A program made the translations under genes and the position numbers. DNA of 64,000 nt from an uncultured Acidimicrobiales bacterium (lineage in GTDB: Bacteria; Actinomycetota; Acidimicrobiia; Acidimicrobiales; SZUA-35): positions 1 to 64,000 of the forward strand of contig CALEWY010000004.1 in assembly GCA_937925335.1 (NCBI GenBank), read 5' to 3'. This document shows positions 51,511 through 58,230 of the stretch, piece by piece. The notes beneath the pieces were generated by a model. The model saw only the letters and a list, made by a program, of their open reading frames with translations. It did not search any database and was not told the DNA's origin. Position 1 is the first letter of the stretch; the number at the start of each line of letters is the position of its first letter.

Positions 51511-52893
51511 TCAGTCGTTGCGAATCTGGGCAGCCTGAGCCAGCCGCTCAGCGAGCGATCCGGAAGCGGCGGGTGCCGCGTCGCCTGAGCCATTGGCAGC
51601 AGAGCCGTGAGAGCCAGAGCCGTTCGGAGCAGAGCCGTTCGGAGCAGAGCCGTGAGAGCCAGAGCTGTTCGGAGCAGGTGCCGGTGTGACGTGTTGGGCG
51701 GGCGCAGCCGGGTTCGTTTGTGGAGCCGAACCGAGGAATCGTTCAACCGACTGGTCGGGTGTGGGAGCCGGACGTGGCTGGGGCGATGCGGGCGCCGATG
51801 CACCCGGAGTTGGCCGGCCGAGTAGGGCGTCTGGCACCGGTGCCTGCAACGATCGAGGACCGGGGGCTTGCAGCGCTTCGGGAACGCGGGCGTGCGGAAC
51901 AGGTGCGTGCGGAACAGTGGTGGCGGCTCCGGGCCCAGGGTTTCGATGAGCGGGCATCGGTCGCGCCGCGGAGGCTGACACAGGCTGTTGCCGAGGTGTT
52001 GGCGCGGGAGCTGGCTGGGTCTGGGCTGGCTGGGTCTGTCCTGGCTGGGTCTGGGCTGGCTGGGTCTGTCCTGGCTGGGTCTGGGCTGGCCGAGGTGCTG
52101 GACCGGGCTGGGCGTGAGCCGTCCGTGAGGCTGGTTGCGCTGCCGCACCGGCCAGCGCGGGCTGGCGTTCGGGAGCGGCTCGACGCGGTTTGGCTTGCAC
52201 CGCAATCGGTGCAGCGGTTCGATCATCGACAGCTCGATCATCAGCAGTTGGATCATTGCCGTCCCGTGCGGCGCGAGCCTTCTCGAGCATGTCCTCACGG
52301 CGCTCGGTATCGGCATCCGGCGTGCCACGACGGAGGATCGCGACTCGGATCACGGTCAGCCCAACGACCGCAGCCAGCATGACGAAGCCGATGCCGGCCA
52401 CGATTGGATTTCCGACGTCCGAACCGGACATCACGGCGTGCACCGTGCCGAAGATGGCGACCAGGTAGGCGCTGAGGTGGACACCGTGCCACAGCCGGTC
52501 CGGCATCCACTTCTTCAGCAGCGACGTCAGCTCGACCGCGGCGAGCAGCCACGCCGACACAACACCAAAGGCGACGGCCAACGGACGCCACTCAGAGGCG
52601 AACGGAACGAACAGCTCAGCCCAACCGAAGGTGACGAAACTGTCTGCCCACAGCGTCACCATGTGAATGATGAGGAACGACACCGAGAGTCCACCAACGA
52701 AGCGGTGAACGTCGAGTGTCCACGGATTCGACGGAGCGACGCGGCGAAGGATTCGTGAGAGCGGACCGGTCGGTGTTGTAGCCCTGGCCGCTGACAGCGA
52801 CATCGACAATCCCAGGATCACCGAAGCGACCGCAGTTGCCCACGTCATCAAACCCGCGGCGCGGGTCGCATACCACCAGATCTGATCGGTCAT
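51511..52893 (-). CDS. Ferric-reductase-like transmembrane protein with a Pro/Gln/Ala-rich tail
   Basis: A 460-residue protein. Residues 1-190 form about six helices with VHRFVGGLSVSFLIIHMV and LWHGVHLSAYLVAIFGTVHAV, placing His pairs as haem ligands as in ferric-reductase/YedZ-like domains. The rest is disordered and repetitive: TQPGQTQPAQ repeats (30-bp DNA units) and SAPNGS repeats. Its start overlaps the ApbE stop (ATGA, 52890-52893). Likely passes electrons across the membrane for a flavinylated partner. Confidence 0.83.
   Translation of the reverse strand: MTDQIWWYATRAAGLMTWATAVASVILGLSMSLSAARATTPTGPLSRILRRVAPSNPWTLDVHRFVGGLSVSFLIIHMVTLWADSFVTFGWAELFVPFASEWRPLAVAFGVVSAWLLAAVELTSLLKKWMPDRLWHGVHLSAYLVAIFGTVHAVMSGSDVGNPIVAGIGFVMLAAVVGLTVIRVAILRRGTPDADTERREDMLEKARAARDGNDPTADDRAVDDRTAAPIAVQAKPRRAAPERQPALAGAAAQPASRTAHAQPGPAPRPAQTQPGQTQPAQTQPGQTQPAQTQPAPAPTPRQQPVSASAARPMPAHRNPGPGAATTVPHAPVPHARVPEALQAPGPRSLQAPVPDALLGRPTPGASAPASPQPRPAPTPDQSVERFLGSAPQTNPAAPAQHVTPAPAPNSSGSHGSAPNGSAPNGSGSHGSAANGSGDAAPAASGSLAERLAQAAQIRND
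52011..52090. repeat. 30-bp in-frame coding repeat (x2.7)
   Basis: Units 52011-52040 and 52041-52070 are identical, with a 20-nt partial copy to 52090. They code the TQPGQTQPAQ repeat of the ferric-reductase-like protein's tail. Since 30 is a multiple of 3, unit number can change without breaking the frame. Confidence 0.92.
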
Positions 52894-53927
52894 GTCGTCT
52901 TCACATCGGCGGCATACCGCTCGAATCCAGCGAGTCGTTCGATGACTCCGTCACGCCTGACGACCAGGCCTGTGGCCTCAAAGTCGGCAGGATCGCCACC
53001 GGCCATCACCCATTTCGTCAGGACTTCGGCCGATGTGGCTGTAGCTGCGATCACCGTCGCCGAAGCGGGACCGTTCGAACGAGGTTCGAGCGTCCCAGGG
53101 TCGATGAGGTGATGTGCAGCCTGCGCTGCCCCGTCGATCATCCACGACCGCTTTGAGATCGACGACGTGCACACGCCGCCTTCGTTGAGAAGAATCGATC
53201 GTGTCTCGTCGCTCCCGGGGCAATCGAGTGAGACTCTCCACCCGCCGCGCTCTGGGCCGGCTCCGCTCACACGGAGGTCGCCGCCGATGCTGACGCAACA
53301 CCCGGCAGCACCAACCGCCATCAGCTCGTTTGCCACCGCGTCGGCGGTCGCACCCTTTGCGATTCCGCCGAGATCGAGTCGGCAGCCAACTGGCACGGTG
53401 ATGGCGAGCGTTGTGGGGTCGAGCCGAATGCGGTGCGCATCGCCTCGTTTGTCACTCGCACCCAACTCGCTGCGATCGAGTTGTTCGGGGCTCTGCCCTG
53501 GATCTTGTACTGGCCCTGGATCTTGTACTGGATTGTGTGATCGGCGATCTCGCCCGATCGAGCGTGCGGTCGAGTTGGGGGCCATCGACTCGAATGAGCG
53601 GTCGTAGCCGGCATCGATCAGCGCTGCACCGACGGTCGGGTCGAAGGCGCCGTTGGTCGCTTCCTGGCCGAGAAGCGCCGTGGAAACGAGATCGAACGTC
53701 GCTGCGGAAACCAGGACCGGTCGACCAGCGTTGTCGTTGAGCTGCGAGAGCTCGGATGTCGGACGAAAACGACTCCATCGGTCTTCAGCTGCTTCGACCA
53801 TGACGACGGCACGCTCGAGGAATCGGCCGAGATCTGCACTCTCGGTGTCGAGCACGATCACGTGCGCGGACGTACCCATCGCGTCGAACGTGATCTCCGC
53901 GTGCGCGTATGAGTTTGAGGAAACCAC
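52890..53927 (-). CDS. apbE: FAD:protein FMN transferase
   Basis: A 345-residue ApbE. AMGTSAHVIV opens the fold, GAFDPTVGAAL and DLGGIAKGATADAVA form the FAD site, CVSIGGDLRVSG and STSISKR-like CTSSISKRS motifs follow, and HHLIDPGTLEP has the metal-binding His/Asp. It covalently attaches FMN to Thr or Ser of a target. No classic D-x-x-(S/T)-G-A-T target protein is visible in this operon. An unusual insertion near residues 130-165 (VQDPGPVQDPGQ) is coded by an 18-bp tandem repeat. Operon with the ferric-reductase-like gene and, 11 nt upstream, the TP-rich protein. Confidence 0.92.
   Translation of the reverse strand: MVSSNSYAHAEITFDAMGTSAHVIVLDTESADLGRFLERAVVMVEAAEDRWSRFRPTSELSQLNDNAGRPVLVSAATFDLVSTALLGQEATNGAFDPTVGAALIDAGYDRSFESMAPNSTARSIGRDRRSHNPVQDPGPVQDPGQSPEQLDRSELGASDKRGDAHRIRLDPTTLAITVPVGCRLDLGGIAKGATADAVANELMAVGAAGCCVSIGGDLRVSGAGPERGGWRVSLDCPGSDETRSILLNEGGVCTSSISKRSWMIDGAAQAAHHLIDPGTLEPRSNGPASATVIAATATSAEVLTKWVMAGGDPADFEATGLVVRRDGVIERLAGFERYAADVKTT
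53496..53531. repeat. 18-bp in-frame duplication inside apbE
   Basis: CCCTGGATCTTGTACTGG occurs twice in direct succession (53496-53513 and 53514-53531), encoding the VQDPGP-VQDPG insertion of ApbE. Confidence 0.92.
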
Positions 53928-53938
53928 GACGATCGACG

Positions 53939-54577
53939 TCAGCTCGCGCCGCTGGTCGGTGTGGTCGGAGGAGCCGTCGTCGGCGGAGTTGTCGTCGTCG
54001 GCGCAGCGGTGGTGGTCGGTGCGGCGGTCGTCGTTGGCGCCGCTGTTGTGGTCGACTCACCTGCCGTGGTCTGCGATGTTGCCGTGGTCTGTGTTGTTGC
54101 CGGCTGTGTGGTGGTCGACTGAGCCGGCGCTTGAGTGGTCGAAACCTGCGTATCAGCTGGCTGGGTAGTGGACTGCGACGGCTGAGTCGACGGGGGCTGC
54201 GTTGTTTGCGGAGCCGGGCGGGTCGAATCGTTCGATCCTGCGTCGGGCGCGCTCACTGGAGCCTGTGTGGTCGACGTACTGGGGATGCCGGCGCCATCGT
54301 TTTGCATGCTGGCCAGTAGGGAGAGACGAACGTCTTCGGCGGTCAACACGGAAGGAGCGGTGGGAACGGTCGCGGCTGCGCCACTGAACGCCAACTGGTC
54401 AGGCGTCGACGAGACCGGCGCCGTCTCCGGCTCAGGGCTGATCGTTGCCGCAGCCTGGGCCTCTGAACGGACGGCAAATCCAATCGTGGCAGTGACGGCG
54501 ACGTAGGTGACGCCACTCGCCCAGCCGATGACTTGACGAGTTCGCTGGGCAGGATGGGCACGGCGCGGAAGCGGCAT
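53939..54577 (-). CDS. Thr/Pro-rich single-pass membrane or secreted protein
   Basis: A 212-residue protein. One hydrophobic N-terminal helix (VIGWASGVTYVAVTATIGFAV, about residues 17-36) follows a basic start, so it is a signal anchor. The remainder is low complexity, Thr/Pro/Ser/Ala-rich, with TTTAAPTTTAAPTTTAAP-like repeats, typical of a surface stalk. Its role in the operon may be to hold or extend the electron-transfer proteins. It lies 11 nt before apbE. Confidence 0.7.
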   Translation of the reverse strand: MPLPRRAHPAQRTRQVIGWASGVTYVAVTATIGFAVRSEAQAAATISPEPETAPVSSTPDQLAFSGAAATVPTAPSVLTAEDVRLSLLASMQNDGAGIPSTSTTQAPVSAPDAGSNDSTRPAPQTTQPPSTQPSQSTTQPADTQVSTTQAPAQSTTTQPATTQTTATSQTTAGESTTTAAPTTTAAPTTTAAPTTTTPPTTAPPTTPTSGAS

Positions 54578-54639
54578 GCACTGGTATCGGCCTCTCCAGC
54601 AGCGAAGCTTGAGCGATTGGGGTGATGAACCCGTCGCTG

Positions 54640-54825
54640 CTAGTTCGTCGTGACGAGGGCGGGGGCGCCACTATGCCCACCGCCGCCGTGGCCGCCTCCC
54701 GAATTGGTGTTACCGATTCCGAACACAAACACGGCGACGAGGGCCACAATGGCGATGCCGGTGAGAGCGGCCCACTGGATGTTGGCGCTGATGGCGGGAG
54801 CTTTGCGAGTCTTTGATGCAGCCAT
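54640..54825 (-). CDS. Small membrane protein with a Gly/His tail
   Basis: A 61-residue protein with one membrane helix (WAALTGIAIVALVAVFVFGI) and a tail of Gly, His and Ser (SGGGHGGGGHSGAP). ATG 54825; a TTG at 54831 is possible. The His-Gly tail could bind metal, which is inference. It is on the same strand as the Thr/Pro-rich protein (62-nt gap with an inverted repeat at 54598-54605/54634-54641). Confidence 0.65.
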   Translation of the reverse strand: MAASKTRKAPAISANIQWAALTGIAIVALVAVFVFGIGNTNSGGGHGGGGHSGAPALVTTN

Positions 54826-54946
54826 AAGCAAACGTTAACCCGAGTTGACTCCGATCTCTTCCCACCTTGTGCCCGCTTGACGCTCCCACTGTGTTCGCCG
54901 CCACGTCGAACCATCTCGGGCTGCAGAGCGGCTACCGTTTACCCAA

Positions 54947-55354: not shown

Positions 55355-56716
55355 ATGCGCGTCATCATTCTCGGAGCCGGCGAGGTTGGCTGGTTTCTCA
55401 CCGAGCGGCTTCTCGCCGAGCACCATGACGTCGTCGTCGTTGAACTCGACGAGGGCCGAGCCCGAGCGATCAGCGAACAGCTCGATGCCCAGGTCGTCAT
55501 CGGCAGCGGTTCCAGTCCTTCGGTTCTACACGACGCTGGCATCCACAAAGCCGATTTGCTCGCCGCCGTCACTCAAAACGATGAAACGAACCTGATCGCG
55601 TCATTGCTCGCCAAGCAGCACGGCGTCGAGATCAGCGTCGTGCGGCTGCAGGCTGAGGAACTGCGTGGCCCGGCCGGAGAGAACCTTCACCGTTCGGTTG
55701 GTGCTGATCTCGTTATCGACCCCGATGCCGACACCGCAGACGAAATCCTCGAACTCATGCACGTCACCGGTGCCGACGAGGTGTACCCAATGGCGGGTGG
55801 CGACCTTGTTGTCATCGGCGCTGTGATTCCCGACGATGCGCCGATCGTCGGCCGAAACCTCGCCGAGATCGCGTCGTCCTTTGGGCCCGAGTGGCCATTT
55901 CTTTTCGGAGCGGTCACCCGTGATGGTGTGACCACGATTCCACGAGGCGATCAGTACCTCGAAGCCGGCGACCACGTTCGCGTGCTCGCCACCCGACAAT
56001 CACGCCGCGACACCCTGCAACTGCTCGGCCTTCCAGGAACCAACGCGCAGCGCGTGATGGTCCTCGGTGGTGGCGCGATCGGAACCCGCGTTGCTGAAGA
56101 ACTCGTCAACGAGGGCGTCGACATCGTCATCATCGAACGCGATCCCAAGCGGGCACGAGAGCTGGCTGCGCACCTTCGTCACGCCGTGGTCGTCGTCGGC
56201 GAGATCACCAACACCGATCTGCTCGCCGAAGAAGCCGTCGGCCAGATGGATGCGGTGATCGGGGCAACAGGTGACGATTCCTCGAACGTTCTCGCCTGCG
56301 CGTTTGCTGCCGCAGAGGGAGCGAAGTTCACCGTTTCGGTGTTGCACCGCTTGTCGCTACTCCCCCTGATTCGACGCTTTGGTATTAACGCTGCGCTCAG
56401 CCCACGAACGGCGTCGGCCAACGCAGTGTTGCGCCACGTGCGCGGCGGAACGGCGGCGGTCACCACGTTCCTCGAAAGTGATGCCGAGGTCGACGAACTG
56501 GAGATCGAGCCGGGCAGCCGCGCTGCGGGTGCAGTGGTCTCCGAGTTGAAGATCCCCCACAACATCCTGCTCGGCGCAGTGGTTCGTCCGGGTCAACCGG
56601 GCGCCATCGTGCGCGGCGACACCGTTCTCCAAGCTGGTGATCACATCGTGGTGTTCGCCACGCCGGACGCTCTGGCCGAAGCTCGACCGCTCTTCGTGGA
56701 TCCGATCGAGAAGTGA
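55355..56716 (+). CDS. trkA: Trk system potassium uptake protein TrkA
   Basis: A 453-residue peripheral regulator with two RCK/KTN units. Both NAD-binding glycine motifs are visible (VIILGAGEVGWFLTERL and VMVLGGGAIGTRVAEEL) with acidic residues at the end of beta-2 (VVELDE, IIERDP), and two RCK_C lobes. It binds NAD(H) or ATP and gates the TrkH channel. Its stop overlaps the trkH start by 4 nt (GTGA), so both are made together. Confidence 0.94.
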   Translation: MRVIILGAGEVGWFLTERLLAEHHDVVVVELDEGRARAISEQLDAQVVIGSGSSPSVLHDAGIHKADLLAAVTQNDETNLIASLLAKQHGVEISVVRLQAEELRGPAGENLHRSVGADLVIDPDADTADEILELMHVTGADEVYPMAGGDLVVIGAVIPDDAPIVGRNLAEIASSFGPEWPFLFGAVTRDGVTTIPRGDQYLEAGDHVRVLATRQSRRDTLQLLGLPGTNAQRVMVLGGGAIGTRVAEELVNEGVDIVIIERDPKRARELAAHLRHAVVVVGEITNTDLLAEEAVGQMDAVIGATGDDSSNVLACAFAAAEGAKFTVSVLHRLSLLPLIRRFGINAALSPRTASANAVLRHVRGGTAAVTTFLESDAEVDELEIEPGSRAAGAVVSELKIPHNILLGAVVRPGQPGAIVRGDTVLQAGDHIVVFATPDALAEARPLFVDPIEK

Positions 56717-58230
56717 CCGCCGTTCTGTCCCATCAGCGATCGAGCATGGTCGCTCACGTGGTGGGAATCGCGCTCGGCGTGTGTGGTGCTGGCATCTTGG
56801 TCTCCGCTCTCGTCGAGACACTCGACGGAGGGCCCGACGTCATCGCCCTTCTCGCTTCTGGCGCTGGCATCACGATCGTCGGAACCGCGCTCTGGCAGGG
56901 CACCAGGGTGCCGGACAAGATCATGCTGATCGACGTGTTCGTCACGGTGACGGTCGCCTGGCTCACCATCGCTGCAGCCGGAGCGATCCCCTACCTCGTC
57001 ACCGGCTCGCTGAGCACGATCGACCTTGCGCTCTTCGAGTCCATCTCTGGATTCAGCACGACCGGTGCCACCGTGATGCGGCCAATCGAGGGCAATTCGG
57101 CTGGCATTTTGTTTTGGCGATCGATCACCCAACTCATCGGCGGCATGGGCGTGATCGTGCTCGTCGTCGCTGTGCTCCCGACGGTTGGTTCTGGCGGTAT
57201 GAACCTCCTCGAGGCGGAAGCGCCAGGGCCAACCGGCGAACGCCTGACGCCTCGGGTTCGCCACACCGCTCGCAACCTCTGGGTCCTCTACCTCGGCTTC
57301 ACGATTGTTCTGGCAGTCGCCTACATCGCCGCCGGCATGAGTATCTACGACGGATTCGCCCATTCGTTCACGACCGTCTCCACTGGCGGTTTCAGCCCGT
57401 ACAACGCATCGATCGGCCACTTTGACTCAGCCGTGATCGAGTGGATCGCCATCCTCGCCATGTTCTTGGCCGGTGGAAGTTTCGCAATCTGGTATCGACT
57501 CCTCCGGGGCGATCCCGGTCCGCTTCTCCGATCGGTCGAACTTCGGTTCTACGTGATGCTGGTGCTGGGCGCGATCACGGTCGTGGCCATCACAAACGAA
57601 GCTGGCACGACGGGCCACGAGCGCATCCGCGATGCTGCTTTCGTCGTCAACGCCATTGTCTCGACCACTGGATTCGGCACCGCTGACTATGGCCTCTGGA
57701 GTGATGCGGCACAGGTGATCATTCTTCTGCTGTTGCCGCTCGGTGGAATGGCAGGGTCGACCTCGGGCGGCGTGAAGATGGTTCGGGTTCTTGCCGTCGC
57801 CAGTTACGCCCACCGTGAGACCCTTCGCCAGCTCCACCCGCGTCTGGTTCGCCCAGTCCGGATCGGCTCATCGGTGCTCGACGACGGCACAGCCAACAAG
57901 ATCATGGCGTTCATGGTGATCGCGCTGGCCATCTTTGGTTCAGGAACCGTTTTGATCGCGATGACCGGCGTCGACCTCATCACGTCGGTGTCGGCATCAG
58001 CCACGATGCTTGGAAACGTCGGGCCAGGCCTCAATGAGGTTGGTCCATCCAACGACTTCTTGAATCTGCCGCGTGCGGCTCGCTTCTTCGGAATGGGCAT
58101 GATGTTGCTCGGCCGTCTTGAGATCTACCCGATTCTGCTGGCTCTCGTTGCCCTGCAGCCCCGTCGTGTGAAGTCGTTCATCATTCGTCGACGAACGAAG
58201 CGACCTCCACGACCGCTCAGCTCGCAATAG
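56713..58230 (+). CDS. trkH: Trk system potassium uptake protein TrkH
   Basis: A 505-residue membrane channel of the TrkH/KtrB family. The selectivity-filter repeats are seen as SGFSTTGATV, STGGFSPYN, TTGFGTADYG and TMLGNVGPGLNEV, each with Gly at the pore position. GGMAGSTSGGVKMVR is the typical intracellular motif. It imports K+ with Na+ or H+ and is gated by TrkA. The start GTG lies within the trkA stop. Downstream 85 nt is empty apart from a weak repeat. Confidence 0.94.
   Translation: MTAVLSHQRSSMVAHVVGIALGVCGAGILVSALVETLDGGPDVIALLASGAGITIVGTALWQGTRVPDKIMLIDVFVTVTVAWLTIAAAGAIPYLVTGSLSTIDLALFESISGFSTTGATVMRPIEGNSAGILFWRSITQLIGGMGVIVLVVAVLPTVGSGGMNLLEAEAPGPTGERLTPRVRHTARNLWVLYLGFTIVLAVAYIAAGMSIYDGFAHSFTTVSTGGFSPYNASIGHFDSAVIEWIAILAMFLAGGSFAIWYRLLRGDPGPLLRSVELRFYVMLVLGAITVVAITNEAGTTGHERIRDAAFVVNAIVSTTGFGTADYGLWSDAAQVIILLLLPLGGMAGSTSGGVKMVRVLAVASYAHRETLRQLHPRLVRPVRIGSSVLDDGTANKIMAFMVIALAIFGSGTVLIAMTGVDLITSVSASATMLGNVGPGLNEVGPSNDFLNLPRAARFFGMGMMLLGRLEIYPILLALVALQPRRVKSFIIRRRTKRPPRPLSSQ

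Follow-up and report, generated by a model that had tools for sequence, protein, structure and literature searches.

The apbE operon of the window

The window analysed here is the whole stretch of 64,000 nucleotides (nt) from contig CALEWY010000004.1 of an uncultured Acidimicrobiales bacterium, and it contains an operon around apbE, the gene for a flavin adenine dinucleotide (FAD):protein flavin mononucleotide (FMN) transferase. Four minus-strand genes were confirmed, transcribed in the order small Gly/His membrane protein, Thr/Pro-rich protein, ApbE and haem-reductase-like protein (Table 1). An earlier interpretation made from the letters alone (the sequence-only reading) had placed this gene set on one strand, with the apbE and reductase genes overlapping, as we find it; the overlap is 4 nt. 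It also held that the ApbE target was absent, or replaced by a low-complexity surface protein. However, the last residues of the Thr/Pro-rich protein are PTSGAS, with SGAS directly before the stop codon, an ending that was overlooked at the time; SGAS fits the [S/T]GA[S/T] core of the ApbE motif and is conserved in relatives, and because of this C-terminal motif the target-absent reading is rejected. The low-complexity protein does stand in the place of a target, as proposed, but rather than replacing the target it is, judging from its sequence, most likely the target itself.

Table 1. Genes and parts of genes of the apbE operon, in window coordinates (TM, transmembrane; aa, amino acids)
Feature	Position	Strand	Remarks
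Small Gly/His protein, single TM	54640..54831	-	ATG also at 54825; extracellular-looking GGGHGGGGHSGAP tail
Thr/Pro-rich membrane protein, proposed flavinylation target	53939..54577	-	212 aa; N-terminal HPAxxxR segment (predicted cytosolic), one TM helix, Thr/Pro-rich linker, C-terminal SGAS
Codons for the last seven residues, TPTSGAS	53942..53962	-	fits [S/T]GA[S/T]; final Ser is the proposed FMN site
ApbE, FAD:protein FMN transferase, without signal peptide	52890..53927	-	345 aa; PF02424
Haem-reductase-like protein, whole gene	51511..52893	-	460 aa
Five-helix di-haem MsrQ/ferric-reductase-like membrane domain	52327..52893	-	His 63, 77, 139, 152
Repetitive Pro/Gln/Ala-rich C-terminal tail of the reductase	51511..52326	-	length differs among relatives

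The single ApbE detected in the genome matches its profile with an E of 2e-46, and its predicted fold matches solved ApbE/Ftp structures (Foldseek, 1vrm, E 6.7e-21). Residue H273 falls in the column of the catalytic His257 of V. cholerae ApbE (Gly in the 6nxj mutant) and is invariant across 26 rows of relatives. At the metal site the acidic residue is Glu301, which reaches at least 90% conservation across the same rows, whereas solved ApbEs have Asp. By profile, fold and catalytic His the protein belongs to the ApbE FMN transferases, and it is predicted to have transfer activity. An N-terminal hydrophobic stretch is missing from 160 of 161 reductase-linked ApbEs, while 23 of 63 other ApbEs have one. 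Most reductase-linked ApbEs fall within one part of a tree of 126 rows, a subsample of the 212 classed; as the tail label requires 17 changes across this tree, no single origin is claimed.

The haem-reductase-like protein of the window has, taken alone, no Pfam match and an MsrQ match only below threshold, but Ferric_reduct (PF01794) is matched by 20 of its 25 aligned relatives and four His are invariant in all 25 rows. Its model consists of five long helices (mean predicted local distance difference test score 92.7), and the nearest structures are SpNOX (Z 13.4; 151 aligned at a root-mean-square deviation (rmsd) of 3.5) and STEAP4 (Z 12.9; 168 aligned at an rmsd of 4.0); cytochrome b561 and NOX5 rank shortly after. 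A Z of about 13 is on its own weak for helical proteins; the MsrQ/ferric-reductase-like identity nevertheless holds because both the profile and the conserved His support it. The protein becomes repetitive from about residue 190 onward, and the positive-inside rule suggests that this tail is cytosolic.

C-terminal endings in related loci

Excerpts of two studies (PMC8238504, PMC12052999) describe ApbE as modifying the last residue of D-x-x-[ST]-G-A-[ST], and according to excerpts of PMC12052999 and PMC10722498 seven residues suffice, the motif ends on the modified residue and it is functional as a C-terminal tag. Our survey of endings covered, besides the window, 240 loci (60 from the family, 80 from named genomes and 100 from the wider class, the last hand-picked from the matches). 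These yielded 234 ApbE open reading frames (ORFs), 169 of them with the reductase directly downstream, and an upstream ORF with a hydrophobic segment was picked by a nearest-stop rule that was blind to the ending. Such an ORF was obtained in 156 loci and was lacking in 13, several of which lie at contig ends.

Among the 156, 27 ended in strict [ST]G[AG]S, 74 in [ST].[AG]S, 102 in [ST].[AGPS]S followed by at most one residue, and 111 in any of three looser patterns. When the last 24 residues were shuffled, the means were 0.1 for the strict pattern, 1.5 for [ST].[AG]S and 7.4 for [ST].[AGPS]S.? (maximum 15 in 300 rounds). The same picking rule applied to random anchors (n = 2930) returned 14 endings with [ST].[AG]S, 41 with [ST].[AGPS]S.? 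and 46 with any looser pattern; other ORFs (n = 3133) gave 58 with [ST].[AGPS]S.? and 4 with the strict form, and the endings of ApbE itself fit the motif patterns in 0 of 232 cases. The 88 Ser-ending tails have S/T at -4 with a frequency of 0.99 (about 0.3 further upstream) and G/A at -2 with 0.85, and 9 of the 39 Asp within -2 to -30 fall at -7 (binomial p 6e-6, kinship ignored), which is the position of the Asp in the canonical motif. With one trailing residue allowed, 106 aligned rows contain 20 Asp within their final 20 positions, 10 of them at -7, and the tail of Neobacillus sp. OS1-33 has DTTTGGT as its last seven residues, the full motif with Thr. The pattern also occurs in Chloroflexi and Firmicutes, and the tail gene adjoins apbE throughout.

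The conserved ending could alternatively be a by-product of translation signals, if the end of the upstream gene overlapped the apbE ribosome-binding site and Gly-Ser codons were kept for a GGAG-like sequence. Some loci, such as L112 and L113, do have a Shine-Dalgarno-like core near the apbE start within the ending, and the DDD-stop of an acidic gene in these operons looks like an overlap effect of this kind (GATGACTGA). However, only 19 of the 102 motif tails contain a Shine-Dalgarno core within their last 15 nt, the final Ser is encoded by AGC (50), AGT (24), TCG (11), TCA (9), TCC (5) and TCT (3), and 10 different Ser/Thr codons are used at -4. The distance from stop to ApbE also varies widely, and some endings carry at least one further residue. 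Since Ser codons are spread and Shine-Dalgarno cores scarce, selection appears to act mainly on the protein, and we consider an origin in translation signals highly improbable.

Several observations speak against the Thr/Pro-rich protein as the ApbE target. The window motif has T instead of Asp three residues before the core, and Asp at -7 is present in 10 of 106 aligned relatives; this Asp is called essential in an excerpt of one paper (PMC10722498), although its change to Ala is described as having only a minor effect in one system in an excerpt of another (PMC12052999). The latter source also describes known ApbEs as favouring Thr over Ser, whereas Ser is nearly invariant in the tails here. 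The loci are related, some being near-duplicates (L153/L244, L143/L265, L219 twice), and therefore the motif counts are not independent events. Moreover, 45 of the 156 picked ORFs fit none of the patterns. Part of these are wrong picks, L158, L164 and L169 having a motif-like ORF beside the picked one, but there are genuine other endings, among them TPSPAH, KPSAP and a Cys-loop, and L171, L271, L236 and others are motif-free. TPSPAH ends a protein of Ktedonobacteria (L172, 1949-3484) in which, as in L182, the tether follows a fused NAD(P)H-FAD-2Fe-2S reductase module. Finally, ApbE seems to be cytosolic and the tail end external, so that a modified end would have to cross the membrane; as ApbE lacks a hydrophobic N-terminus, flavinylation may precede export.

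The Cys-loop, such as CYSTPSGNVRCY, replaces the Ser ending in one clade of eight loci (L280, L283, L285, L290, L291, L297, L298 and L302), which likewise counts against a flavinylated tail. Endings of the form CSGSKC(P) or CQGSNCP were seen in L143, L252, L265 and L266. The endings of the group of eight do not resemble a flavinylation motif and would suit a C-terminus that is read by something else (sorting, a protease or docking to the haem protein), with ApbE mainly cleaving FAD or supplying FMN; some ApbE relatives are FAD pyrophosphatases, as an excerpt on T. pallidum Ftp describes (PMC4767422). We regard this as unlikely in view of the position-by-position fit to the ApbE motif, including Asp at -7, the tail gene immediately beside apbE, the retained catalytic His and the full Thr-ending motif in Neobacillus.

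Other candidate targets and neighbouring genes

No target of the PF04205 (FMN_bind), PF10029 (DUF2271) or PF12094 (DUF3570) type was found in the genome of the window, which is 82% complete. The operon proteins have no FMN_bind match and the operon has no FMN-binding-domain gene, unlike typical MsrQ-like flavinylation clusters. The sequence-only reading was thus correct that an FMN_bind-type target is missing from the operon, and the same applies across this genome; its view of the operon as a variant extracytoplasmic electron-transfer system is also upheld. Across 39 family genomes, ApbE was present in 34, the reductase in 31 and FMN_bind in 3, so that FMN_bind is missing from 36, including 18 of the 20 best-quality ones. 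With 34 genomes against 3, ApbE without FMN_bind is the rule in the family and no accident of this genome.

The target might still be encoded elsewhere, either in the 18% of the genome that is missing or as a secreted SH3 surface protein, which would leave the Thr/Pro-rich protein as a structural wall protein. No motif-bearing FMN-binding protein was found elsewhere in the genome, but the SH3 protein (L325:1017-2369, on the unlinked contig C38) has DSGSGAT in a disordered stretch, possibly as a chance match or as a second ApbE target. The genome-wide DNA pattern DxxSGAT covered the Thr ending only, Ser-ending sites not being searched, and it gave 29 matches compared with 20 in the reversed control; its count is therefore close to chance. 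Against a target elsewhere stand this near-chance count, the lack of FMN_bind in nearly all family genomes and the constant position of the tail gene beside apbE, and we consider it improbable.

Two further proteins of the operon were considered as targets. The endings of the reductase tail are not enriched (2 of 189 for [ST].[AG]S), and this candidate was rejected. The small Gly/His protein (HSGAP) has Pro at the position of the modified residue, its SGAP is not kept in all relatives, and it is not favoured. It has no Pfam family match, and 8 other loci of the family have similar small GGH proteins at the corresponding place in the operon; it is likely an accessory envelope partner. Directly before the tether gene, 41 of the 156 loci, for example L216, L260, L262 and L235, encode a secreted protein with one TM helix and a C-terminus rich in Asp/His (often with a DDD end); it could be a metal-binding partner, and in L159 this protein belongs to Haem_bd (PF14376). 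A promoter and terminator scan returned no promoter-like site, and 4 terminator-like sites where 1.7 were expected. TrkA- and TrkH-like potassium uptake genes lie on the plus strand (window 55355-58230), divergent from the apbE operon.

Tether topology and comparison with known systems

Taken together, the operon probably encodes a membrane electron-transfer unit in which ApbE puts FMN on the final Ser of a disordered tether and the haem protein supplies this tether with electrons, a reading to which we assign a probability of roughly 0.77. The FMN would come from FAD, and ApbE would attach it to the terminal Ser of the Thr/Pro-rich membrane protein, within a shortened, C-terminal form of the ApbE motif (SGAS-stop here and D-x-x-S/T-x-G/A-S-stop in some relatives). 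From a short N-terminus in the cytosol the tether would pass through a single TM helix into a disordered extracellular arm with the flavin at its tip, the arm measuring 44-204 residues in motif-bearing relatives. We infer that the five-helix di-haem protein, fed by quinol or by a donor in the cytosol, delivers electrons at the outer face. There the swinging flavin would pick them up and hand them on to an acceptor that lies within the wall or outside it, perhaps a metal and perhaps reached via the small Gly/His protein.

Natural fusions point to the same topology. In Ktedonobacterales L182 (1967-3409), FAD-binding, NAD-binding and 2Fe-2S domains are followed by a basic stretch, a TM helix and a short linker ending in NTRSGTS, a fusion whose sequence evidently gives the tether an NAD(P)H donor, and in Alicyclobacillus L174 a peptidoglycan-binding domain (PG_binding_1) lies within the linker; therefore the N-terminus is placed inside and the tail outside. 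The tether also resembles three canonical FMN_bind (PF04205) proteins from the same class (L130, L132 and L308), which have a similar basic R-R-H-x-A-x-x-x-R anchor, a TM helix and a Thr/Ala-rich linker, then the domain, and share [S/T]GA[S/T]. In these proteins the domain is folded and the motif internal (e.g. DSVSGAT), while the window protein has neither. A profile built from two of the three also matches the tail-type L270 (RRHPARRAR), and the tether may represent an FMN_bind protein whose domain was lost or never acquired.

According to an excerpt of Meheust et al. (2021, PMC8238504), in which genes without a signal peptide were filtered out, about 4% of the genomes with ApbE lack a recognised substrate. 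Domain searches would miss a short motif at the C-terminus of low-complexity proteins, and such motifs could account for part of this gap. We lean towards the view that domain-free ApbE substrates are widespread in Actinobacteria, Chloroflexi and Firmicutes, as naturally occurring flavin tags at the C-termini of disordered membrane tethers, whose final-Ser FMN swings between a di-haem TM protein and cell-wall acceptors, a redox arm without a flavin-binding fold. Covalent flavins would then act without a binding fold, like redox beads tethered to a flexible arm.

The literature searched, which held no preprints and few subscription papers, yielded no description of such C-terminal tether targets. 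The closest known systems are the MsrQ-like flavinylation clusters, for which excerpts of PMC8238504 describe apbE beside an MsrQ/ferric-reductase-like di-haem membrane protein, commonly in Actinobacteria, with an extracytosolic flavin acceptor proposed, as in the window. In those clusters, as described there, a gene with an FMN-binding domain is typical and the haem protein often carries an NAD-binding domain, whereas the window operon lacks the FMN-binding domain and its motif forms the end of a disordered tether. DUF2271, DUF3570, Flavodoxin_4 and FMN_red substrates are, like the window protein, ApbE substrates without FMN_bind, but in the excerpts concerned (PMC8238504, PMC11334425) all are folded domains, while the window protein has no visible pocket-bearing domain; some FMN_red flavinylation sites are described as lying on an unstructured C-terminal extension near the flavin pocket (PMC11334425). 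The tail of the window protein is also comparable to the engineered Flavin-tag (Tong et al., as presented in excerpts of PMC12052999 and PMC10722498), a short terminal ApbE motif that receives FMN on its last residue. The Flavin-tag is Thr-based, with Asp required or preferred, whereas the tails described here are natural, Ser-based and often without Asp.

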